Source: Leucobacter allii (GTDB taxonomy: Bacteria > Actinomycetota > Actinomycetes > Actinomycetales > Microbacteriaceae). From it: a stretch of DNA of 64,000 nt. The DNA lies in NCBI RefSeq assembly GCF_022919155.1, contig NZ_CP095045.1, forward strand, positions 3,498,129-3,562,128. The letters are read 5' to 3'. Shown here piece after piece: positions 3,945 to 56,815 of this stretch; positions within the stretch are counted from its first letter, which is position 1, and each line of letters starts with the position of its first letter. A program made the position numbers and the translations under genes. The notes beneath the pieces are model-generated. The model had not been told where the DNA came from, did not search any database, and worked only from the letters and a program-made list of their open reading frames with translations.

Positions 3945-4883
3945 CTATGCGGCGGCGGGATGCGCCCCGCAGGCGGAGGAGGCATGCGCGTCGCACACGG
4001 CGTAGCGCGCGCGGCAGCCGGGTTCCGGGCAGTCGGCGAGGCGCTTCGATCCGGTGCCGCACGCGCGGCAGCGTCCGAGGACCGCGGCCCCGGGGGCGAA
4101 GTCGATCGACTCGCGTCCGTCGAACACGGCGAGCGAGCCCTCCCACAGGCCGTCGTTCCCGTAGGCCTCGCCGTACGTCACGATGCCGCCGTCGAGCTGG
4201 TAGACCTCGGCGAAGCCGCGCTTGCGCATCGCGGCGGAGAGGATCTCGCAGCGGATCCCGCCCGTGCAGTACGTGACGACGGGGCGCTGCTTCAGCTCGT
4301 CGTACGCTCCGCTCTCGAGCTGCGCCACGAAGTCGTGGGTCGTCGACGTCTCGGGCACGACGGCGCCGGTGAAGCGGCCGATCTCCGCCTCCCAGGCGTT
4401 CCGCCCGTCGAAGAACACGACGTCGTCCCCGCGCTCGGCGACGAGCGCGTGCACGGCCTCGGGTGAGAGCGGCACGCCGCCGCCGACGACGCCCTCGCCC
4501 GAGACCTCCGTCTCCTCGGGGATGCCGAAGGCCACGAGCTCGTCGCGCACCTTGACGCTGAGCCTCGGGAAGTCGGCGCTGCGCCGCCACGGGACGCTGC
4601 GATCCGCGCCGCGCAGCAGCTGCGGCTCCGTCTCGGCATAGCCGCTGCCGTCGCTCCACTTCGCCTCGAGCCCGGCGAAAGGGGCGTAGCCGCGCGTGCG
4701 CCTGAGGTACTGCTTGCACGCGTCGATCTCGCCGCCGACGGTCCCGTTGATGCCGTGCCGCGAGACGATGATCCGTCCGCGCAGCCCGAGCGACGCGCAC
4801 AGCTCGTGCTGCCAGAGCCGCACGGCCTCGGGGTCGGCGACGGGCGCGAACACGTAGTACAGCAGGATCTTGGGGTCGCTCAC
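3945..4883 (-). CDS. trhO: tRNA uridine(34) hydroxylase, rhodanese type
   Basis: The 312-residue length and layout match the TrhO/YceA (UPF0176) family, which makes 5-hydroxyuridine at position 34 of tRNAs. The N-terminal domain has [17 protein letters not shown] and [16 protein letters not shown]; the central rhodanese domain has [15 protein letters not shown] and the catalytic loop CTGGIRCE. The C-terminus carries a Cys-rich zinc-like region, [19 protein letters not shown], then CDAH, typical of the family. It is monocistronic: it points away from the TipAS-type regulator and is separated from arsR by the tandem repeat. Confidence 0.93.
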
Positions 4884-8131: not shown

Positions 8132-8282
8132 GGAATGGCACGGTAGCGGATCCCGGCACGCGACCGCGCACGCTGGCGGGGCGCCTGCGCGGCCCCTAAG
8201 CTGTGGAGCGGAGACGTGACCGCGGGAGCCGGTCACCGGGCGCGCGCCGCCCGACACGGCGCCGGAACGAATGGATCGAGCG

Positions 8283-8837
8283 ATGACGCAGACGCAGGGA
8301 CGTGGAGCGATCAACCCGTACGCGGGGATGCGGGAGGTTCCCGGCTTCACGCTGACGAGCGCCGACATCCAGGACGGCGAGCCGCTGCCGGCCGAGCTCT
8401 ACGCCGAGTACGCGGGCGGCGCGAACCGCTCCCCGCAGCTGAGCTGGTCGGGCTTCCCCGCCGAGACGAAGAGCTTCGCCGTGACCTGCTTCGATCCCGA
8501 CGCGCCGACCGGTTCCGGCTTCTGGCACTGGTCCGTCGCGAACGTCCCGGGAGACGTCACCGAGCTGCCCGCCGGCGCCGGCGCCCTCGGCAGCGCGCTG
8601 CTGCCCGCGGGCACCATCACCATGCCGAACGAGAAGCGCGAGCCGGCGTTCACGGGAGCCGCTCCGCCCGAGGGCACCGGCGTGCACCACTACTGGTTCG
8701 TGGTCCACGCCCTCGATGTCGAGCGCATCGACGTCGACCCGCAGGCGACCCCCGCGGTGCAGGGCTTCCTCATGCGCGACGCGGTGCTCGCGCGCGCCAT
8801 CATCGTGGCGACCGGCGAGTTCGGCGGCGCCGCGTAG
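8283..8837 (+). CDS. YbhB/YbcL family PEBP-like protein
   Basis: 184 residues of the phosphatidylethanolamine-binding-protein fold in its bacterial form. The ligand-pocket motifs are visible: SPQLSWSGFPAETKSFAVTC followed by FDPDAPTGSGFWHW, and later GVHHYWFVVHALD. Function in bacteria is poorly known. The ATG at 8283 gives the family's usual short N-terminal extension. No signal peptide. Confidence 0.9.
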   Translation: MTQTQGRGAINPYAGMREVPGFTLTSADIQDGEPLPAELYAEYAGGANRSPQLSWSGFPAETKSFAVTCFDPDAPTGSGFWHWSVANVPGDVTELPAGAGALGSALLPAGTITMPNEKREPAFTGAAPPEGTGVHHYWFVVHALDVERIDVDPQATPAVQGFLMRDAVLARAIIVATGEFGGAA

Positions 8838-8984: not shown

Positions 8985-10004
8985 ATGCGTCAGACCTCGT
9001 TCCGCCGCCGTGCGCTCGCCGTCACGAGCCTCACCGCCGCAGCCGCGCTCACGCTCAGCGCCTGCTCCTCCAGCAGCTCCGACTCCGAGGGCGGCGACGA
9101 CGCCGCGGGTCTCGAGTCCGTCAAGATCGGGATCAGCCAGCTCGTGCAGCATCCCGCGCTCGACTCGGCCACCGAGGGCTTCAAGCAGGCGTTCCTCGAC
9201 GCCGGCTACGTCGAGGGCGAGACCGTCGAGTTCGACGAGCAGAACGCGAACGGCGAGCAGGCCACCGCGGTCACGATCGCCCAGACCTTCGCGAGCTCCG
9301 ACGCCGACCTCGTGCTCGCCGTCGCGACCCCCGCGGCGCAGGCGGCGGCCCAGGCCATCGCCGACAAGCCCGTGCTCTTCACCGCGGTGACCGATGCGGT
9401 CTCCGCGGAGCTCGTCGACTCGAACGAGGAGCCCGGCGCCAACGTCACCGGCACGAGCGACATGGCCCCGCTCTCCGATCAGCTCGAGATGATCACCCAG
9501 ATCGTGCCCGACGCCGCGAAGATCGGCATCGTCTACGCCTCCGGCGAGGTGAACTCCGAGGTGCAGGTGGAGGCCGCGCAGGAGGCCGCCGCGGATCTCG
9601 ACCTCGAGATCGTCACGAAGACCGTCACCACCGCCAACGACATCGCGCAGGCCACCGAGGCGCTCGGCGACGTCGACGCGATCTACGTCCCCACCGACAA
9701 CATGGTCGTCGCCGGCATCTCCTCGCTCATCCAGGTCGCCGAGGACAAGCAGATCCCCGTGATCGGCGCAGAGTCCGGCACCGTCGAGGGCGGCGCGATC
9801 GCCACCCTCGGCATCGACTACGAGAGCCTCGGCCACCAGACCGGCGAGATGGCGATCAAGATCCTGCAAGACGACGCGGATCCCGCGACCATGCCGGTCG
9901 AGTTCGCGAGCGAGTTCACCTACGTCGTGAACCCCGGGGCCGCCGAGCGCATGGGCGTCGAGATCCCCCAGGAGATCCTCGACCAGGCGGAGACCGTCGA
10001 GTAG
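8985..10004 (+). CDS. ABC importer substrate-binding lipoprotein, TrpX-like
   Basis: 339 residues with a twin-Arg-rich N-terminus and lipobox LSAC (Cys ~27), followed by a Ser/Asp linker and a type I periplasmic fold of the ABC_sub_bind family: VKIGISQLVQHPALD, GFKQAFLDAGYVEGETV, LVLAVATPAAQAAA, IYVPTDNMVVAGISS. In firmicutes the family imports tryptophan or tyrosine; here the substrate is not proven. First gene of a three-gene operon with permease and ATPase. No T-box or other leader is evident in the 147 bp upstream, which holds only a weak TACCAT -10-like box. Confidence 0.88.
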   Translation: MRQTSFRRRALAVTSLTAAAALTLSACSSSSSDSEGGDDAAGLESVKIGISQLVQHPALDSATEGFKQAFLDAGYVEGETVEFDEQNANGEQATAVTIAQTFASSDADLVLAVATPAAQAAAQAIADKPVLFTAVTDAVSAELVDSNEEPGANVTGTSDMAPLSDQLEMITQIVPDAAKIGIVYASGEVNSEVQVEAAQEAAADLDLEIVTKTVTTANDIAQATEALGDVDAIYVPTDNMVVAGISSLIQVAEDKQIPVIGAESGTVEGGAIATLGIDYESLGHQTGEMAIKILQDDADPATMPVEFASEFTYVVNPGAAERMGVEIPQEILDQAETVE

Positions 10005-10037
10005 TCGGCCCCGCCGGACGAAGCAAAGGACCAACGC

Positions 10038-11036
10038 ATGATCGGCGCGCTCGAACTGGGCCTCATCTACGGGGTGATGGCCCTCGGCGTCTACCTCACC
10101 TTCAAGGTGCTGAACTTCCCCGACCTCACGGTCGACGGCAGCTTCACCACCGGTGCGGCGGTCGCCGCCGCGCTGATCACGAACGGGATCAACCCCGTCC
10201 TCGCCACCCTCGCGGCGGCGGGGGCGGGGCTGATCGCCGGCGCGGTCACCGGAGTGCTCCACACCAAGGGGCAGATCGACGGCCTGCTCGCCGGAATCCT
10301 CACGATGATCGCCCTCTGGACGATCAACCTGCGCATCATGGGCACGGCGAAGGAGGACACGGCCGTGGCGGCCAACCTCCCGCTGCTGCGCGCCGAGACC
10401 GTCTTCACGCCGCTCAAGGACGCGGAGCTCCTCGGCAGCTGGGCCGGCATCGCGATCATCCTCGTCGCGGTGCTCGTGCTGAAGCTCCTCGTCGACTGGT
10501 TCCTGTCGACGAACCTCGGCCTCGCGATCCAGGCGACCGGGGACAACGGCCCGATGATCCGCAGCTTCGGCGTGAACACCCACCGCACGACCATCCTCAC
10601 GCTCGCCATCTCCAACGGCTTCGTCGGGCTCTGCGGCGCGCTCGTCGCCCAGTACCAGGGATTCGCCGACATCAGCATGGGCGTCGGACTCATCCTCGTG
10701 GGGCTCGCCTCGGTCATCCTCGGCCAGGCGGTCTTCGGGCAGCGCTTCATCTGGGTCGCGAGCCTCGCGGTCGTGCTGGGTGCGGTGCTGTACCGCCTCA
10801 TCATCTTCTTCGCGCTCCGCGCCGGACTCGACCCCAACGACATGAAGCTCGTCACCGCGGTCCTGGTGATCGCGGCGCTGCTGCTGCCGCGGTGGCGCTT
10901 CCTGCGCCGCATCCCCGCGCTCAGGCGACGGGACGGGCGGATCGTGGTCGAAGACGGTTCCGCCGCGCCCGCGGCAGCCGCGTCGCCCGGATCTGAGCCC
11001 GTGGCCGCGACCCCCGACGAGACGAGCGGGAGGTAG
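10038..11036 (+). CDS. ABC importer permease, TrpY-like
   Basis: 332 residues with about nine hydrophobic segments in the branched-chain-amino-acid permease arrangement. Characteristic motifs are LNFPDLTVDGSFTTGAAVAA near residue 30, GLLAGILTMIALWTINLRIM, and the cytoplasmic loop GDNGPMIRSFGVNTHRTTIL that contacts the ATPase. The C-terminal ~45 residues are a Pro/Ala-rich tail not needed for transport. Starts 33 bp after the binding-protein gene. Confidence 0.9.
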   Translation: MIGALELGLIYGVMALGVYLTFKVLNFPDLTVDGSFTTGAAVAAALITNGINPVLATLAAAGAGLIAGAVTGVLHTKGQIDGLLAGILTMIALWTINLRIMGTAKEDTAVAANLPLLRAETVFTPLKDAELLGSWAGIAIILVAVLVLKLLVDWFLSTNLGLAIQATGDNGPMIRSFGVNTHRTTILTLAISNGFVGLCGALVAQYQGFADISMGVGLILVGLASVILGQAVFGQRFIWVASLAVVLGAVLYRLIIFFALRAGLDPNDMKLVTAVLVIAALLLPRWRFLRRIPALRRRDGRIVVEDGSAAPAAAASPGSEPVAATPDETSGR

Positions 11037-11040
11037 CCGC

Positions 11041-11832
11041 ATGCTCACCATCGACCGTATCGAGAAGACCTTCTTCCCCGGCACCGTCAACGAGCGCCGG
11101 GCGCTCGCCGGGCTCAGCCTGACGCTCGAGGAGGGCGACTTCGTCACCGTCATCGGCTCGAACGGGGCCGGCAAGTCCACGCTGTTGAACGCGATCTCCG
11201 GCCGCTACGCGGTCGACGCCGGCGTCATCGAGATCGACGGCCAGCGCGTCAACCGGCTGAAGGAGCACCAGCGCGCGAAGTACATCGGCCGGGTGTTCCA
11301 GGATCCGATGGCGGGCACCGCGCCCGACCTCACGATCGAGCAGAACCTCGCGCTCGCGGTGCGCCGCGGCAAGCCCCGCGGGCTCGGCCTCGCGCTCTCC
11401 CGCGCGCTGCGGGCGCGGTTCCGCGAGGAGCTCACGGCCCTCGAACTCGGTCTCGAGCACCGGCTCACGGCGAAGGTCGGCCTGCTCTCGGGCGGCCAGC
11501 GCCAGGCGCTGTCCCTCCTCATGGCGGGCTTCACCCATCCGAGCATCCTGCTGCTCGACGAGCACACCGCCGCGCTCGACCCGCAGCGCGCCGCGCTCGT
11601 CACCGAGCTCACCGACCGCATCGTCTCGCAGGGCGGGCTCACCACGCTCATGGTCACGCACAACATGGAGCAGGCGCTGCGTCTCGGCAACCGGCTCGTG
11701 ATGATGCACGAGGGCGACATCGTCTTCGAGGCCTCGGCCGAGGAGAAGCGGCGCCTCACCGTGCCCGGGCTCCTGGCCGAGTTCGCGAAGATCAAGGGGG
11801 CGCAGCTCGACGATCGCGCGCTGCTCGCGTAG
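11041..11832 (+). CDS. ABC importer ATPase, TrpZ-like
   Basis: 263 residues with all ABC motifs: Walker A GSNGAGKST, Q-loop in GRVFQDPMAG, signature LSGGQRQAL, Walker B ILLLDEHTAALD and H-loop MVTHNM. The signature's neighbour ...TAKVGLL and the DEHTAALDP box are typical of the TrpZ group. Separated from the permease by 4 bp. It energises import through the permease. Confidence 0.94.
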   Translation: MLTIDRIEKTFFPGTVNERRALAGLSLTLEEGDFVTVIGSNGAGKSTLLNAISGRYAVDAGVIEIDGQRVNRLKEHQRAKYIGRVFQDPMAGTAPDLTIEQNLALAVRRGKPRGLGLALSRALRARFREELTALELGLEHRLTAKVGLLSGGQRQALSLLMAGFTHPSILLLDEHTAALDPQRAALVTELTDRIVSQGGLTTLMVTHNMEQALRLGNRLVMMHEGDIVFEASAEEKRRLTVPGLLAEFAKIKGAQLDDRALLA

Positions 11833-11905
11833 GCCAGCCTGGGAGGACGCCCGGGGCCGGTGCGCCTCGCCGCCCCCGTCGGCGGCCCGTCGTACAGTGT
11901 GGAAC

Positions 11906-14900
11906 ATGGCCGATGAGGGAGCAGCCGCCGCGTCGCGCACGGCGGTGCCGGGGTTCGACGCCGTCGCGGAGCAGACGGCGGCGTGGTCGGCGCTCGCCGA
12001 GGCGGCGGGCGACCGCGCCGAGGCCTGGATCGCGCGGGCCCGGGACGCGGCCGACGCCGCGCCCCCGGCCGAGGTGCTCGCCGGGCTGACCGGGGACCCC
12101 GAGAGCTTCGCCTTCACCCGGCGGCTCCTCGAACTCGTCGCGGGCACCGACGACGCCTTCGCGTCGGCCGCGGGGCTGCGGGAGGTCGCGCAGGAGGTGC
12201 CGCGCTCGATGCCGGTACGGGACCGGCTGGCCGTGCGGGCCGGAGGCGCCACCTCCCTCGGCCTGCCGTGGGCGGTGATGCCGGTGGCCCGCCGGTGGCT
12301 GCGGGAGCGGGTCGCCGGGCTCGTGCTCGCCGCCCGGCTGCCCGAGGGCGGCGACCCCGGTCGCCTCTCCGGCCTCGCCGAGGCGATCCGCCGGCACGCG
12401 GAGGCCGGGCTGACGACCGTCGTCGTGCCGCTCGGCGAGCCCGTGCACGGCCCCGCCGGGGCCGAGGCGGAGGCCGCGCGGCTCACCTCCCTCGCCGCGC
12501 ACGCCGCCGTGCGGCACCTCCAGGTCGATCCCGCGCGGCTCGCCCCCGGCGGCTCGGACTGGTCCGCGGAGTCCGATACCGCGCGCGCGGCCCGGGCGCT
12601 GCGCCCGATCCTCGAGGCCGCGGCGCAGCACGGCACCACGATCCACATCGCCCCGAACAGAGTGCGCTGGGCCAGGCTCGTGCCCGATCTCCTCGGTCGC
12701 GCGCTGGCCGACCCGGAGCTCGACCGCGCGCGCGTCGGCGTGCGGCTGCTCGCGGAGCTCCCCGAATCGCGCGAGCACTACGACCGCATCAGCCGCTGGG
12801 CGCAGCGCCGGGTCGCCGACGGCGGCGCCGCGGCCGAGGTGGTCATCGGCGTGGCGGGCGTCGCCGGAGCCGAACGCATCGCATCGATCCTGAGCGGGCT
12901 GCCGGTGCCCGTGATCGAGGATCGCGCGGAGCTCCGCGCCCAGTTCCTGCGTCTCGCCGAGCTCGCGCTGCACCCCGGGCGCGCGGCGGTGCTCAGACCC
13001 GTGCTCGCGACGGAGGACCCCGTGCTGCTCGCCGCGGCGCGCGAACTCGCCGAGCGGAGCCGCAGCGCGGAGCTCGCCTCCCTCCAACTGCGCAGCGGCG
13101 TCGCCACCGGACTCGCCGGCATCGTCGCGGATTCCGGGATCGACGTGAGGATCGCGCTGCCCGTGGTCGCCCCGAAGCGCTTCGGCAGCGCGGTCGACCT
13201 GCTCGTCGGCTTCGCCGCGGAGGCCGCGGACCCGGCATCGGATGTGTCGCGCCTCGCCGCGCTGCTCGCGGAGGACGAGGCCGCCCCGGCGGCGGCGCTC
13301 GCGGCGGCACGCGGCGAGCTCGCGGCGGCGGCGCGGTTCGCGGTCGATCCCGCGCCCGCGTCGCATCGCACCCAGCTGCGCGCCAGGGAGTGGGATCCGA
13401 GCGAGCGCGACAGCGCGCTCTTCTACCGCGCCCCGGAGGAGCCGGTGCGTTTCGACACCGGCGGGCTCACCGCTGCGGTGCTCGGACTCAGCCGGGGAAC
13501 CGACGGCGAGATGAGGCTCGCGGACCTCGTGCCGCCGCGCGCGATCCCCGTCGTGTCCGCTTCGGGCTTCGCGGGCGAACCGGGGACGGACGCGAGCGTG
13601 CCGGCGAACCGCGAGTGGGTGCGGGAGCTGCTCGATCGCGCCGCGGGCGCGGCGCAGGAGCGGGATCCCGTCAACGACACCGTCGCGCTCTCCGCCGCGG
13701 ATCTCGACCCCGAGCGCGCCGCGCAGGACGCGCGCGAGGACGGGGAGCGCTGGACCCGGCTCTCCCACGGCGGCCGCGCCTCGCGACTGCGGCGGGCGGC
13801 GCTCGCCGTCGTCGCCGCGCGCGACCGCCTGCTGCAGGCGCTCGCGGCCGACACGGGCGCACCGGTGGCCGAGCTCGACGCGGAGGTCGACGACCTCGTC
13901 GACGCCGCCCGGTACACCGGGCAGCTGGCCGAGGGCCTCGCGGCCGTGCGCGGGGCGTCCTTCGCGCCGGAGCGGCTCGTGCTCGTGGCCGCGGACGCGG
14001 CGACACCGATCGCGGCTCAGGCCGAGGCCGTGCTCGCCGCGCTCGGTGCCGGAGCGGGCGTGCTCTGGGCGGTGCCGCAGCGCGTCGCCGACTCCGCTCG
14101 CATCCTGCTCGAGGAGTGGGAGGCCGGTGGGATCGTCTCGGGCGCGGTGCGCCTCGAAGCGGTGGCCGAGACGCGCACGCTCACGGAGCTCGTCGCGCAC
14201 CGCGAGGTCGACCGCGCGGTGATCCTCGGCGATCGCGCGGCGGCCACGGCACTCGCCCGCGCGCGCCCCGACCTGCGCGTCGAGGGCCGGTTCCGCGCCC
14301 GCGGCGCCGTCATCGTCACGCCCTCGGCCGACCTCGACGCGGCGATCGCCGACCTCGTGACCTCCGCCTTCCGCGGCGCGGGGACGGATCTCCGCGCCGC
14401 GCACGCCGCGATCCTCGTCGGCAGCGTGGCCCGATCCCGGCGCTTCCGCGAGGGCCTCGCCGACGCGGTGCGCGCCCTGCGCCCCGGAGACACCGCTCGG
14501 CCGGGCGACGAGGACCCGCTCGCCTTCGACCTCGGCCCGCTGCCCGCACCGCCCGACGCCGCAGGACTGGCCGCGCTGACCGAGCTGGGCCGCGGGGAGC
14601 GCTGGCTCGTCGAGCCGCAGCGGCTCGACGCCGAGGGCCGGCTGTGGTCGCCGGGCGTGCGGCTCGGCGTCGCGCCGGAGTCCTCCTTCTGGGACGACGC
14701 GCGCGGCGTGCCGGTGCTCGGGATCGCCCACGCGCGCAGCCTCGGCGAGGCCGTCGAACTGCAGAACGCGGCGGGGAGCGGCGCGGTCGCCGGGCTGCAG
14801 TCCGCCGACGCGCACGAGGTCGAGCAGTGGATCGCCGGGGCCGAGGCCGCCGGCTTGGCGCTCAACCGGCCGACGACGGGCGCCCGCGTCGAGCGGCACC

Positions 14901-15637
14901 CCTCCGGCGGATGGAACGACGCCGTGATGGGACTCCCGGCGCTCAGCGGCGGGCCCAATCGTCTGCTGCCGTTCGGCTCCTGGCAGCCCCGCGCGGGCAC
15001 GCGCAGCGAGACGCTGCACCTGCGGGGGCTCGAACCCGAGGTGCAGCTGCTCATCGAGGCGGCGCAGCCCGTGCTCGACTATGCGGACTTCGACGGCGTG
15101 CGCCGCGCCGCCCTCGCCGACGCCCTCGTCTGGCGCACCGGCTTCGGGGCGGAGCACGACGCGATCGGCCTCGGCATCGAGCGCAACCTCGTCAGATACC
15201 ACCCGGTGCAGACGCAGGTGCGGCTCGCGGAGCACGGCCCGCTCGCGGCCCTCGTGCGCGTGCTCGCGGCCGCGCTGCTCGTGCGCGCTCCCATCACGGT
15301 GTCGACGGGCGTGCTGCTGCCGCCCGGGCTCGGCGGCCTGCTCGATCGGCTCGGGATCGAGGTGTCGCTCGAGCGCGACGACGCGTGGGTGGAACGGCTC
15401 GCCGTCGCCGGTCCCGTCGGATCGGACGGCGTGCGCGCCGACCGGGTGCGGCTCATCGGCGGCGACCCCGTGCGCGCGGCCGAATGGCTGGGCGGTCTGG
15501 ACCGCACGGCGCTCTGGGCCGAGCCCGTGACGATGGCCGGCCCCGTCGAGCTCCTCACCCTGCTGCGGGAGCAGTCGGTGTCGGCTCGGGCGCACCGGCA
15601 CGGGCTGGCCATCCCGGTACCCGGCCTGGAGGAGTGA
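11906..15637 (+). CDS. PutA-like giant protein with degenerate proline-dehydrogenase and aldehyde-dehydrogenase domains
   Basis: 1243 residues aligning along its length with actinobacterial bifunctional PutA. It has a helical N-terminus, a PRODH-like barrel (~100-440), an ALDH-like region (~510-1000) and a C-terminus ending in the PutA-like LLREQSVSARAHRHG. Active-site motifs are replaced. The segment normally reading AFGxAGQKCSAA is AFRGAGTDLRAAH (residues 821-833), so the catalytic Cys position is Leu. The ETGGKN segment reads RFRARGAVIV, and the PRODH motifs FINLDMEEY and VRLVKGAN appear as TIHIAPNRV and VVIGVAGVA. It is probably a paralogue that no longer oxidises proline. The ATG at 11906 follows TACAGT by 7 bp, a possible leaderless start. 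Confidence 0.8.
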   Translation: MADEGAAAASRTAVPGFDAVAEQTAAWSALAEAAGDRAEAWIARARDAADAAPPAEVLAGLTGDPESFAFTRRLLELVAGTDDAFASAAGLREVAQEVPRSMPVRDRLAVRAGGATSLGLPWAVMPVARRWLRERVAGLVLAARLPEGGDPGRLSGLAEAIRRHAEAGLTTVVVPLGEPVHGPAGAEAEAARLTSLAAHAAVRHLQVDPARLAPGGSDWSAESDTARAARALRPILEAAAQHGTTIHIAPNRVRWARLVPDLLGRALADPELDRARVGVRLLAELPESREHYDRISRWAQRRVADGGAAAEVVIGVAGVAGAERIASILSGLPVPVIEDRAELRAQFLRLAELALHPGRAAVLRPVLATEDPVLLAAARELAERSRSAELASLQLRSGVATGLAGIVADSGIDVRIALPVVAPKRFGSAVDLLVGFAAEAADPASDVSRLAALLAEDEAAPAAALAAARGELAAAARFAVDPAPASHRTQLRAREWDPSERDSALFYRAPEEPVRFDTGGLTAAVLGLSRGTDGEMRLADLVPPRAIPVVSASGFAGEPGTDASVPANREWVRELLDRAAGAAQERDPVNDTVALSAADLDPERAAQDAREDGERWTRLSHGGRASRLRRAALAVVAARDRLLQALAADTGAPVAELDAEVDDLVDAARYTGQLAEGLAAVRGASFAPERLVLVAADAATPIAAQAEAVLAALGAGAGVLWAVPQRVADSARILLEEWEAGGIVSGAVRLEAVAETRTLTELVAHREVDRAVILGDRAAATALARARPDLRVEGRFRARGAVIVTPSADLDAAIADLVTSAFRGAGTDLRAAHAAILVGSVARSRRFREGLADAVRALRPGDTARPGDEDPLAFDLGPLPAPPDAAGLAALTELGRGERWLVEPQRLDAEGRLWSPGVRLGVAPESSFWDDARGVPVLGIAHARSLGEAVELQNAAGSGAVAGLQSADAHEVEQWIAGAEAAGLALNRPTTGARVERHPSGGWNDAVMGLPALSGGPNRLLPFGSWQPRAGTRSETLHLRGLEPEVQLLIEAAQPVLDYADFDGVRRAALADALVWRTGFGAEHDAIGLGIERNLVRYHPVQTQVRLAEHGPLAALVRVLAAALLVRAPITVSTGVLLPPGLGGLLDRLGIEVSLERDDAWVERLAVAGPVGSDGVRADRVRLIGGDPVRAAEWLGGLDRTALWAEPVTMAGPVELLTLLREQSVSARAHRHGLAIPVPGLEE

Positions 15638-15722
15638 GGGCGACTCGGCGCGACTGCGGCGTTCGCCGCGTCTGTCGCTTCGGCCGCGTCAGCCGCGCCC
15701 GCCGCTCGTTCGGGGGCACGGC

Positions 15723-16187
15723 TCAGCCGCGGCGCATCGGGGTGTGGGGGATCCCGTCCTCGAGGAAGCCGGGACCGCAGGGCGCGAAGCCGAAACGCGC
15801 GTACCACTCCGCGAGATGCGACTGGGCGTGCAGCAGGATCGGACGGCCCGCGCAGGCCGCGATGCCGGCCTCGAGCAGGGCCCCGGCCACGCCGCGACCC
15901 CGCCATGCGGGCGCCGTGACGACCCGCCCGATGCTGCGGAGCCCGGGTTCCTGGGCATCCTCGGCGAGGATCCGGATCGTCGCGGCGATGCCGCCCGTCG
16001 CGTCCTCCACCCACAGTTGCACCGTCCCCGGCTCGAGGTCGCGACCGTCGAGGTCGAGGTAGACGCAGTCCTGCTCGACGACGAACACCTCCTGCCGCAG
16101 TCGCGCGATCGCATAGAAGGTGCGGCTCGGAATGTCGTCGATGCGGTGCGCGGTGCGGAGCGAGAGTCCTGCGGGAAGTGCCGTCAT
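15723..16187 (-). CDS. GNAT-family N-acetyltransferase (ElaA-like)
   Basis: 154 residues. The acetyl-CoA loop is seen as GRVVTAPAWRGRGVAGALLEAGI, after FYAIARLRQEVFVVEQDCVYLDLDGRD, the signature of ElaA-type GNATs, and before LHAQSHLAEWYARFGF. Substrate unknown. It ends just after putA-like on the opposite strand and is divergent from the tRNA-Tyr gene. Confidence 0.9.
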   Translation of the reverse strand: MTALPAGLSLRTAHRIDDIPSRTFYAIARLRQEVFVVEQDCVYLDLDGRDLEPGTVQLWVEDATGGIAATIRILAEDAQEPGLRSIGRVVTAPAWRGRGVAGALLEAGIAACAGRPILLHAQSHLAEWYARFGFAPCGPGFLEDGIPHTPMRRG

Positions 16188-16275
16188 GCCTCGATCCTGC
16201 CACGCCTGCGGGTCGATTTCCGTTCGCGACGGCGAGCCGGTAATGTGGTCTCCTGGTCGTGCTCGCGCGACCGAT

Positions 16276-16357
16276 GGCGGGTTACCCGAGCGGCCAAAGG
16301 GGGCTGACTGTAAATCAGCTGGCACTGCCTACGGGGGTTCGAATCCCTCACCCGCCA
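16276..16357 (+). tRNA. tRNA-Tyr (anticodon GTA)
   Basis: Acceptor arms GGCGGGT (16276-16282) and ACCCGCC (16350-16356) pair, the anticodon loop reads CTGTAAA with anticodon GTA, a long variable arm typical of bacterial tRNA-Tyr is present, and the T-loop GTTCGAATC is intact. The discriminator is A; CCA is not encoded. A TAATGT -10-like box lies at 16241-16246. The last 42 bases are shared with the prophage, so integration leaves the tRNA whole. Confidence 0.97.
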
Positions 16358-16358
16358 C
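16316..16358 (+). other. attL core (tRNA-Tyr 3' segment)
   Basis: The 43 bases are identical to 56773-56815. They start in the anticodon stem and run through variable arm, T-arm and acceptor, ending one base past the discriminator. Strand crossover must occur inside this stretch, probably near the anticodon-stem end as for other tRNA-targeting integrases. Confidence 0.95.
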
Positions 16359-16436: not shown

Positions 16437-16447
16437 TTTAGTCTGCG
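16437..16447 (+). promoter_or_regulatory. candidate integrase arm-type site, left end
   Basis: TTTAGTCTGCG occurs here and again at 56666-56676 in the same orientation, each within about 110 bp of an att core. The left copy overlaps the integrase stop codon. Repeats of this kind near both cores are expected of arm-binding sites of a tyrosine integrase; assignment is inference. Confidence 0.4.
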
Positions 16448-17586
16448 CTTTGCTGGAAAAGTTCATCAATCACGGCAGCCGCCTCAGGCCCCCGTTTCGC
16501 CGGCTCCACGTAGTACTTCAAGTTCGCAAGCCCAGTGTGCCCGAGCTGATCCCGGGCAGCTTCAACGCCCAGCCGGTCGGCGATGTGTGTGGCGACGCTC
16601 TTTCGGTATAGCCCGAGCTTCAGGCCCTCGTATTCCGATCCCCTGAGAGCGTCCCGCCAGTCCCGCCGCAAGCTATCCGGCCAGCGCAGCGTTCCCGCCT
16701 GCGATGGGAACACGAGGTCGCAGGTAGCGTTCACGCGTCGCCTGATGAGCATGCTGGCCACCGAGTTCGGTAGCTCGAGCCGGCGAATCAGATGGTTCTT
16801 CGTGTGGTGCTGGATTTCGAGCTTGCCTGCCGTGTTCTTGATGACGGTCTTGTCGACCGTGGCCTCGTAAGGTTCCTGGAGTAGGTCGAGCGAGGGCCAA
16901 TCGAACGCGAGGAGCTCGGCCGTGCGCGTGCCCGTGGCGAGATACATGTCCGTGGCGTCCGTCAGGCTCCCGTTCCTCGGGTGCCTGCCGATCGGCTTAC
17001 GATCCCACTGCTGCAGCAGCACCCGGATCTCCATGAGCTGCGGGGCGCGCAGTGCGCTGAAGTTCGGGACTGCACGTGCAACCGCCCGAGTCTCCACCAC
17101 GGGATTGCGGTCTACTGCTTCGTGCAGCACCGCGAGCATCATCATGTTCTTCAAGACGGTCCGCACCATCCGGGCTGCGCCAGGATGCTTCGTGGCGACA
17201 GCCTGCACGAACCGGTCAAGCCGAGCCGGCGTGGCCTCGGCAATGGTCACACCGCCAAGCCCGACACGGATCGTTTTCAGCTTCGACTTGTAGTTGTTCT
17301 TCGTCTGGGGGCCGAGCTTCGAATCGCGTTCCATCTCAGCTTCGTAGATGTCGGCAAGCTCTCGGAGCTTCGTATCGCGGTTGATGTCGCCCAGTGAGGG
17401 CTTCGATCTATCCGCGAGCGCTTCCAAGAGAGCCGTCTTCGCCTTAGCCTTGCTCGCCCCAGTGCGGAGAACTGGGCGGCTCACTCCGTCATAGTCGCGG
17501 AATCGCGCGTAGGCGGCAGGCTTCCCAGAGCGGGTGGTGTAGTTGATCTCTCCCCATGCACCGATGGGGAGTGCCGGGCGCGCCAT
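16438..17586 (-). CDS. int: tyrosine-type phage integrase
   Basis: 382 residues: an arm-binding N-terminus, a SAM-like core-binding domain (~70-170) and a catalytic domain. Catalytic residues visible are R221 (GTRTAELLAF), a likely K263, R328 (LYRKSVATHIA), H350 (LGHTG) and the nucleophile Y358 or Y359 (LKYYVE). The usual His of the H-x-x-R box is replaced (sequence GLYR), a variation tolerated in some actinophage integrases. It is encoded next to attL pointing at the core and recombines attP with the tRNA-Tyr attB. Its ATG overlaps the stop of the ImmA-like gene. Confidence 0.96.
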   Translation of the reverse strand: MARPALPIGAWGEINYTTRSGKPAAYARFRDYDGVSRPVLRTGASKAKAKTALLEALADRSKPSLGDINRDTKLRELADIYEAEMERDSKLGPQTKNNYKSKLKTIRVGLGGVTIAEATPARLDRFVQAVATKHPGAARMVRTVLKNMMMLAVLHEAVDRNPVVETRAVARAVPNFSALRAPQLMEIRVLLQQWDRKPIGRHPRNGSLTDATDMYLATGTRTAELLAFDWPSLDLLQEPYEATVDKTVIKNTAGKLEIQHHTKNHLIRRLELPNSVASMLIRRRVNATCDLVFPSQAGTLRWPDSLRRDWRDALRGSEYEGLKLGLYRKSVATHIADRLGVEAARDQLGHTGLANLKYYVEPAKRGPEAAAVIDELFQQSAD

Positions 17587-56772: not shown

Positions 56773-56815
56773 CAGCTGGCACTGCCTACGGGGGTTCGAA
56801 TCCCTCACCCGCCAC
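56773..56815 (+). other. attR core
   Basis: 43 bases identical to attL. Only the 3' part of tRNA-Tyr is present, so no tRNA is made here. The base after the repeat begins host DNA. Confidence 0.95.

Follow-up and report, generated by a model that had tools for sequence, protein, structure and literature searches.

The stretch of DNA analysed here, referred to as the window, comprises 64,000 nucleotides of Leucobacter allii contig NZ_CP095045.1 (positions 3,498,129 to 3,562,128 of the forward strand, assembly GCF_022919155.1). Our subject is a gene within it that encodes a protein with the architecture of PutA, the bifunctional enzyme in which a proline dehydrogenase (PRODH) and an aldehyde dehydrogenase (ALDH) share one chain. 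In this protein the catalytic residues of both enzymes are replaced. The gene, its parts and the box ahead of it are as follows, in window coordinates:

11906..15637, plus strand: PutA-like pseudoenzyme gene, 1243 amino acids (open reading frame (ORF) from ATG; Pfam; PDB relative 5ux5)
11893..11898, plus strand: TACAGT, a -10-like box 7 bp 5' of the ATG, candidate leaderless promoter (box survey)
12380..13180, plus strand: degenerate PRODH barrel, residues 159-425, with the flavin adenine dinucleotide (FAD) and proline residues lost (Pfam, alignment)
13331..13585, plus strand: inter-domain linker, residues 476-560, with REWDPSERDSALFYRAP...DTGGLTAAVLGL (alignment, conservation)
13694..14932, plus strand: degenerate ALDH domain, residues 597-1009 (Pfam, alignment)
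14390..14392, plus strand: codon of residue 829 (Leu), in the column of the catalytic Cys (alignment)
15023..15505, plus strand: C-terminal ALDH-superfamily-like domain (ALDHSF), residues 1040-1200, kept (limits drawn from the PutA alignment)
15506..15601, plus strand: conserved C-terminal motif region with LREQSVSARAHRHG, residues 1201-1232, kept (alignment, column retention)

Pfam returns a weak Pro_dh match (42 bits, residues 159-425) and an Aldedh match (116 bits, residues 597-1009). The closest solved relative by sequence is PutA 5ux5 (E = 4.1e-100), from Corynebacterium freiburgense, and the C-terminal part matches it too. The PRODH-ALDH-C-terminal domain order, a length of about 1200 amino acids and the C-terminal motif mark the protein as a PutA homolog, and the Pfam, 5ux5 and alignment results bear out an earlier note, made from the sequence alone, in which these features were said to be kept. 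An RHH (ribbon-helix-helix) DNA-binding domain was not found by Pfam, which reports Aldedh and Pro_dh alone, and the protein is thus not of the trifunctional type C. Type B PutA is defined, in a passage of PMC5293562, as a protein of 1100-1200 residues with a C-terminal domain. The window protein is like type B PutA, as represented by 5ux5, in domain order, length, C-terminal domain and C-terminal motif, but lacks the catalytic and cofactor residues. A GTG 9 bp 5' of the ATG is a possible alternative start. The L. allii protein P0001 is 99% identical to the window protein.

Four groups of sequences were aligned: group A, the window protein and 32 other Leucobacter copies (33 in all); group B, five copies from three other genera; group C, 16 active PutAs of other genera (C-type); and group D, 19 active Leucobacter PutAs (D-type), leaving out L111 (internal TAA), one of the 20 D-type loci. 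Every catalytic residue examined is present in all 16 C-type and all 19 D-type proteins. In the window protein, PRODH columns K329, D370, R431, K434, H487, Y552, R555 and R556 (Escherichia coli PutA numbering) are all changed. The same is true of the ALDH columns for Asn, Lys, Glu and Cys and of two positions in EYFGP, its Glu and its Phe; the survivors are the Glu of YxxRRxxE (E559) and two Gly of QPFGGW. What a functional PutA would carry is therefore missing from both halves: the PRODH FAD and proline motifs (VSIK, NLDMEE, VRLVKGAN, AGHN and YxxRRxxE, with the last Glu as sole survivor) and the ALDH Asn, Glu, Cys and nicotinamide adenine dinucleotide (NAD)-site Lys. The earlier note had claimed the loss of both active sites and quoted its motif readings correctly (AFRGAGTDLRAA for AFGHAGQKCSAA, TIHIAPNR for FINLDMEE, VVIGVAGV for VRLVKGAN, and RFRARG for the ETSGKN loop); the losses exceed those it listed, with further PRODH and ALDH columns changed.

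The ALDH Cys and both PRODH Lys residues are missing in 38 of 38 aligned copies (33 of group A, five of group B), and because all of these related proteins share the loss, it is neither chance nor sequencing error. Across A and B there is free variation in the ALDH Cys column, where P, L, A and H all occur; the Glu column holds R, H, Q, G or C, and the Asn and Lys columns are variable. The PRODH Lys is replaced by D, E or S, and the flavin-contact Lys by V, L, I, T and others. Partial survivors are R431 (five of five in B), Y552 (eight of 33 in A), R555 (two of 33) and R556 (one of 33). Residue roles for Lys265, Arg488/489 and Cys844 of SmPutA are given in part of PMC12398946. Nearly all of the sequence criteria applied indicate the loss of both catalysis and cofactor binding.

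Occurrence in Leucobacter and the pattern of constraint

A counterpart of the window gene is found in 54 of 54 Leucobacter genomes at an identity of 46% or more; active copies reach 41% at most. Thirty-three of the 54 copies, the window's included, were aligned, and the remaining 21 were judged by their identity to the window protein (46% or more). Conservation across the Microbacteriaceae, which the earlier note proposed to check, takes in every Leucobacter genome searched and the dead copies of group B in three other genera. The note had also suggested looking for a second, canonical putA. None was found in the window genome (one contig of 3.56 Mb, rated 100% complete), where the window protein as query matches itself alone, and where the PRODH half of an active Leucobacter PutA matches the window gene alone, the 26 other matches being ALDH-only. 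A Pro_dh family search of this genome returned 0 matches, but it is weak by itself, because the window gene escapes it too. Among the congeners, an active D-type PutA occurs in 45 of 54. No other PutA or PRODH match was found in nine of the 54, with the window genome among them (G000, G014, G021, G024, G034, G041, G045, G047 and G052), with low completeness for G041 (72%) and G045 (76%); in G021, G034, G047 and G052 the sole Pro_dh match is the dead gene. An extra short PRODH match, in frames of 389-409 amino acids and separate from both PutA-like genes, is present in G015, G032 and G042. Since public records of close relatives carry the names proline dehydrogenase or aldehyde dehydrogenase, metabolic models could wrongly assign proline oxidation to Leucobacter without a real PutA.

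The earlier note had argued that a frame so long and intact must be under selection. The argument is invalid alone, because the GC content of the gene is 0.78 and longer ORFs overlap it both antisense (11792-15601, 1269 amino acids) and out of frame (11983-16062, 1359 amino acids); its conclusion is nevertheless backed by the ratio of nonsynonymous to synonymous substitution (dN/dS). Nei-Gojobori values, read with partial saturation of synonymous sites in several pairs, are 0.045-0.27 in 11 degenerate pairs (10 from A, one from B), with window versus A_L091 (0.267) at the top of the set, and 0.065-0.20 in seven active pairs, with 0.24 and 0.31 in two further ones. For the same genome pairs, dead and active genes give 0.071 versus 0.065 (G002/G003) and 0.120 versus 0.067 (G048/G039). 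Presence in 54 of 54 genomes, site loss in 38 of 38 copies, these ratios and the promoter-like box together support the pseudoenzyme under selection that the note proposed, that is, a conserved and selected homolog from which the catalytic residues are missing.

The constraint is unevenly placed. Residues 501-525 and 1201-1225 are the two most conserved 25-residue stretches of A and B (mean entropy 0.55 and 0.48); residues 501-525 are among the most variable in C and D, a mix of two types (mean entropy 2.07). With residues 478-545 as query, 121 of 170 candidates matched at E <= 0.001, and among the 120 listed those named by organism are all Leucobacter. A matched comparison used the 14 of 54 genomes for which both the dead (A) and the active (D) protein were in hand, giving 91 pairs. 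Identity is lower in A than in D for the N-terminal arm (0.59 versus 0.86), PRODH (0.52 versus 0.86, the barrel being the least conserved A domain) and the two ALDH parts (0.56 and 0.62 versus 0.80 and 0.85), and higher in A for the linker (0.70 versus 0.60, A higher in 78 of 91) and ALDHSF (0.68 versus 0.64, A higher in 68 of 91). Compared with the active PutA of the same genome, then, the dead copies have a slightly more conserved linker and C-terminal domain and much less conserved catalytic domains.

A second measure took the columns more than 90% conserved in 85 active PutAs. Group A retains 30% of those in the barrel (145 columns) and 45% and 56% in the ALDH parts, versus 84% in the linker (seven columns), 82% in ALDHSF (20) and 73% in the C-terminal motif (13). 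When linker, ALDHSF and motif were tested against the barrel by residue-matched permutation, 0 of 5000 trials produced as large a difference. Charged columns are retained at 100% in ALDHSF (11 columns) versus 13% in the barrel (38 columns), and aliphatic columns at 56% and 35%, respectively. By these measures, selection guards the linker, ALDHSF and the C-terminal motif most. The earlier note had suggested that the protein might act as a scaffold, sensor or regulator; as between catalysis and interaction through the linker and C-terminal domain, the pattern favours interaction.

In a leaderless actinobacterial promoter, a TAnAGT sequence just before the ATG would be expected. Such a box stands 6-7 bp ahead of an in-frame ATG at 32 of 34 A and B loci; it was not found at L098, where the N-terminus is frame-broken, or at L158. 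The same test gave 0 of 20 D-type PutA loci and eight of nine PutA loci of other genera. The box points to a leaderless promoter and suggests leaderless expression, which it supports and does not prove.

Degenerate copies in other Microbacteriaceae and the origin of the clade

Dead and partly dead copies were also found in other genera, given here as handles (g31, g17, g35, g45, g5 and g50). In the case of g31, L195 is intact, L186 (Cys changed to Arg) and L196 (K329 changed to Thr) have few changes, and L197, L198 and L199 show deep loss; these six genomes of one genus (L186, L195-L199) form a natural series, from intact to completely dead, in which the order of active-site loss can be followed. 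In g17, L217 has lost the ALDH residues with the barrel nearly intact, and L218 shows deep loss. The residue test accepted Arg at K329, and L186, L198 and L217 were thus scored unchanged there. In g35, L194 is partly lost with the Cys kept, and L178, L182, L183, L185 and L191 show deep loss; g45 L214 has one residue changed. Proteins P0086-P0090, two of them named Frigoribacterium, were rejected as canonical PutAs, the alignment showing degenerate sites: loss is deep, with the flavin Lys kept. Of 40 further copies fetched, 31 are intact by the residue test.

Losses were mapped on a tree of 107 rows, thinned and built by a quick method with the motif columns removed. With regain allowed, five changes are needed; without it, the Cys is lost five times (counting A+B and g17 as one event, where long branches meet), the flavin Lys three times and the Glu nine times (in two cases by a change to Asp). 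In the 11 dead sequences from these other genera, 85-88% of the conserved columns are retained in ALDHSF, 80-86% in the linker and 49-60% in the barrel. In seven pairs with a dead or partly dead member, dN/dS is 0.11-0.38. All 22 other-genus genomes searched, whether holding a dead, a partly dead or a group B copy, have a strong Pro_dh match besides.

Several lines connect the dead clade to the C-type. A and B together form one side of a branch with an SH-aLRT (Shimodaira-Hasegawa-like approximate likelihood ratio test) support of 100, and their identity to C-type PutA (36-38%) is above that to D-type PutA of the same genus (30-33%, with one partial match at 36%). The linker core REW...GLTxxVLGL is common to A, B and the C-type protein C_L138, and absent from D_L115 and P0091. 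That the linker is a Leucobacter invention was rejected on this ground: because an active C-type PutA has the core of the motif, the motif is ancestral and merely sharpened in the dead clade. The -10-like box is likewise shared by A, B and the other-genus PutA loci and not by the D-type.

Gene order offers a further comparison. A UPF0176 gene lies upstream on the opposite strand in the window and in eight of 20 Leucobacter contexts, at two of four B loci (on the other side at a third), and likewise in g35 (three of four), g5 (two of two) and g17 (two of two). An ORF of 148 amino acids (L228 7166-7612) recurs at 19 of 28 other loci, which include dead and intact copies but no A or B locus. Because their locus is the same as that of intact genes in other genera, the dead copies of g35 and g31 are read as having died in place. 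Orthology of the dead clade with C-type PutA, and repeated independent loss elsewhere, are both supported and not proven.

Possible functions

The reading we consider probable is that the window gene is a C-type orthologue inactivated at its original locus. It would be maintained because its linker and C-terminal domain serve a function other than catalysis, probably binding. Its starting point would be the C-type, one of two PutA types in the Microbacteriaceae, marked by the -10 box at the start codon and the linker REW...GLTxxVLGLTRG. An ancestor of Leucobacter and three other genera would have lost FAD binding, proline oxidation, NAD binding and the ALDH site, leaving a true pseudoenzyme, presumably PutA-folded, that is expressed from its own promoter and retained for a job that the active ancestor probably already had. 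This second job would probably have no need of catalysis. Since the protein would have no reaction left to serve, its job is most likely binding, of a partner protein or the membrane, via the linker, ALDHSF domain and C-terminal motif.

A broader proposition, to which we give an even chance, is that in one of the two PutA types the linker and C-terminal domain perform an ancestral, non-catalytic function, which persists after catalysis is lost; that activity disappeared in five or more independent events among the family members sampled, with losses ranging from one or a few residues to complete; and that the dead form is a Leucobacter core gene even where no other proline dehydrogenase match exists. 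A single bacterial family offers a natural series here, from active through partly dead to completely dead PutA, and a non-catalytic role of a large bifunctional enzyme, in its linker and C-terminal domain, therefore becomes testable.

A number of observations weigh against the reading we prefer. The C-terminal motif is less conserved in A than in D (0.82 versus 0.88, A higher in 20 of 91 pairs), the retention figures for the linker and ALDHSF rest on few columns (seven and 20) because both regions are naturally variable in active PutA, and Gly, Pro and Trp columns taken alone show no difference (63% in barrel and ALDHSF alike). The contrast between regions is weaker in the dead copies of other genera, where the N-terminal arm is kept (84%) in two of three groups, and those of g31 also retain the first half of ALDH (78%). 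Long branches weaken the placement of the dead clade in trees. As to the link with the C-type, UPF0176 was not seen at the group C loci (five of five, L160-L164) or at those of g31 (six of six), g45 (two of two) and g50 (one of one), and accompanies one of 11 further active loci (L168 of L165-L175). The frame is broken in five of 54 Leucobacter genomes (G007, G011, G020, G031 and G016, in the last near the N-terminus), of which G011, G016 and G020 are single-contig genomes; in this count, stops reported for G021 and G036 precede the ORF used and those of G037 and G040 were left unchecked, and the copies of G035 and G045 run into contig edges. Finally, the barrel of the Leucobacter copies holds near-invariant acids, which may point to a new ligand pocket and not a plain scaffold.

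Those acids give the best-surviving alternative, which we consider rather unlikely, namely a new enzyme or small-molecule sensor whose barrel would have been rebuilt as an acidic pocket for binding or converting a cationic ligand. At position 208, the 33 Leucobacter copies have D (32) or E (one), at 370 E (30) or D (three), and at 371 D (all 33), in columns occupied by Lys, His and Asn in active PutA; Glu 439 is retained as well (32 E, one D). Also in favour of this alternative is an ABC transporter with a substrate-binding protein and a permease of branched-chain-amino-acid type, encoded upstream of the gene at 12 of 20 loci and on the opposite flank at one more; it is missing at seven of the 20. 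The acids at 208, 370, 371 and 439 are kept in only three, four, three and two of the five B copies, and the barrel is the least conserved domain, with positions 249 and 251 varying. The transporter operon was also dropped as a functional clue in its own right, given its absence from those seven loci and the gene's own promoter-like box.

A regulatory or hetero-oligomeric partnership with an active PutA of the same cell would fit the strong PRODH match that accompanies the gene in 45 of 54 Leucobacter and 22 of 22 other-genus genomes. The nine Leucobacter genomes that have the gene and no other PutA or PRODH match, two of them 72% and 76% complete, contradict this proposal, barring an undetected partner of another family, and leave it improbable. 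The graded loss in g31 and g17, which resembles ongoing decay, and the five frame breaks are what a decaying, functionless relic would leave behind. Single genomes may indeed be losing the gene, but for most of the clade the idea is contradicted by the selection tests, by universal presence in Leucobacter, by the promoter-like box and by a linker and ALDHSF slightly more conserved than those of active PutA in the same genomes, and we hold it to be very improbable. An assembly or reading-frame artefact, conceivable in high-GC sequence with many spurious ORFs, is refuted by recovery of the same protein from other genomes, mostly at 46-74% identity.

The preferred reading, a pseudoenzyme retained for binding, can be set beside known systems. 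In active PutA the C-terminal domain contributes to ALDH activity and channelling, and it has been suggested to be essential for functional switching with lipid binding, as stated in parts of PMC5293562. PutA is also described in passages of PMC5293562 and PMC9132996 as a non-enzymatic regulator, a second job besides catalysis. The regulators described in those passages differ in retaining catalysis, and trifunctional PutA acts there via its RHH DNA-binding domain, of which Pfam finds none here. Human ALDH16A1, according to part of PMC10650815, is an ALDH-fold pseudoenzyme that misses the whole catalytic triad and interacts with maspardin. On that description it resembles the window protein as an ALDH-fold protein without catalytic residues, and differs in that the window protein has lost two different active sites in one chain. 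ALDH16A1 is not a PutA and is not known to have a PRODH domain. A literature search, with most subscription papers outside its scope, returned no title on inactive PutA and nothing on Leucobacter proline dehydrogenase, Microbacteriaceae PutA, proline dehydrogenase as a pseudoenzyme or the PutA of Corynebacterium freiburgense; the combination of PutA, pseudoenzyme and proline gave NQO2 only.

Gene neighbourhood

The genes that flank the window gene, as compared across loci, are these:

3945..4883, minus strand: UPF0176/rhodanese gene, which occurs 5' of PutA in several other genera too (locus comparison)
8271..8837, plus strand: PEBP-family gene, a neighbour in 15 of 20 Leucobacter loci (locus comparison)
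8985..11832, plus strand: ABC transporter, with substrate-binding protein 8985-10004, permease 10038-11036 and ATPase 11041-11832 (locus comparison)
15723..16325, minus strand: GNAT acetyltransferase ORF, downstream neighbour (ORF list, locus comparison)
16276..16358, plus strand: tRNA-Tyr (locus comparison)

The ABC transporter is present at 13 of 20 Leucobacter loci and so is not an obligatory neighbour, L098 being the one with the transporter on the other side, and its upstream copy is duplicated in tandem at L095 (Leucobacter G006) and L244 (G020). Because the 5' end of the GNAT ORF overlaps the tRNA gene, its true start is probably internal. The tRNA-Tyr lies within about 3 kb of the dead gene at 20 of 20 Leucobacter loci and three of four B loci. 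In the window its final 40 bp (16319-16358) are repeated exactly at 56776-56815, some 40 kb on, and an integrase-like ORF, so named by eye, adjoins the first copy of the repeat (16438-17586, minus strand). Given this exact repeat of the tRNA-Tyr end and the adjoining ORF, tRNA-Tyr seems to be the site of an integrated element about 40 kb long.

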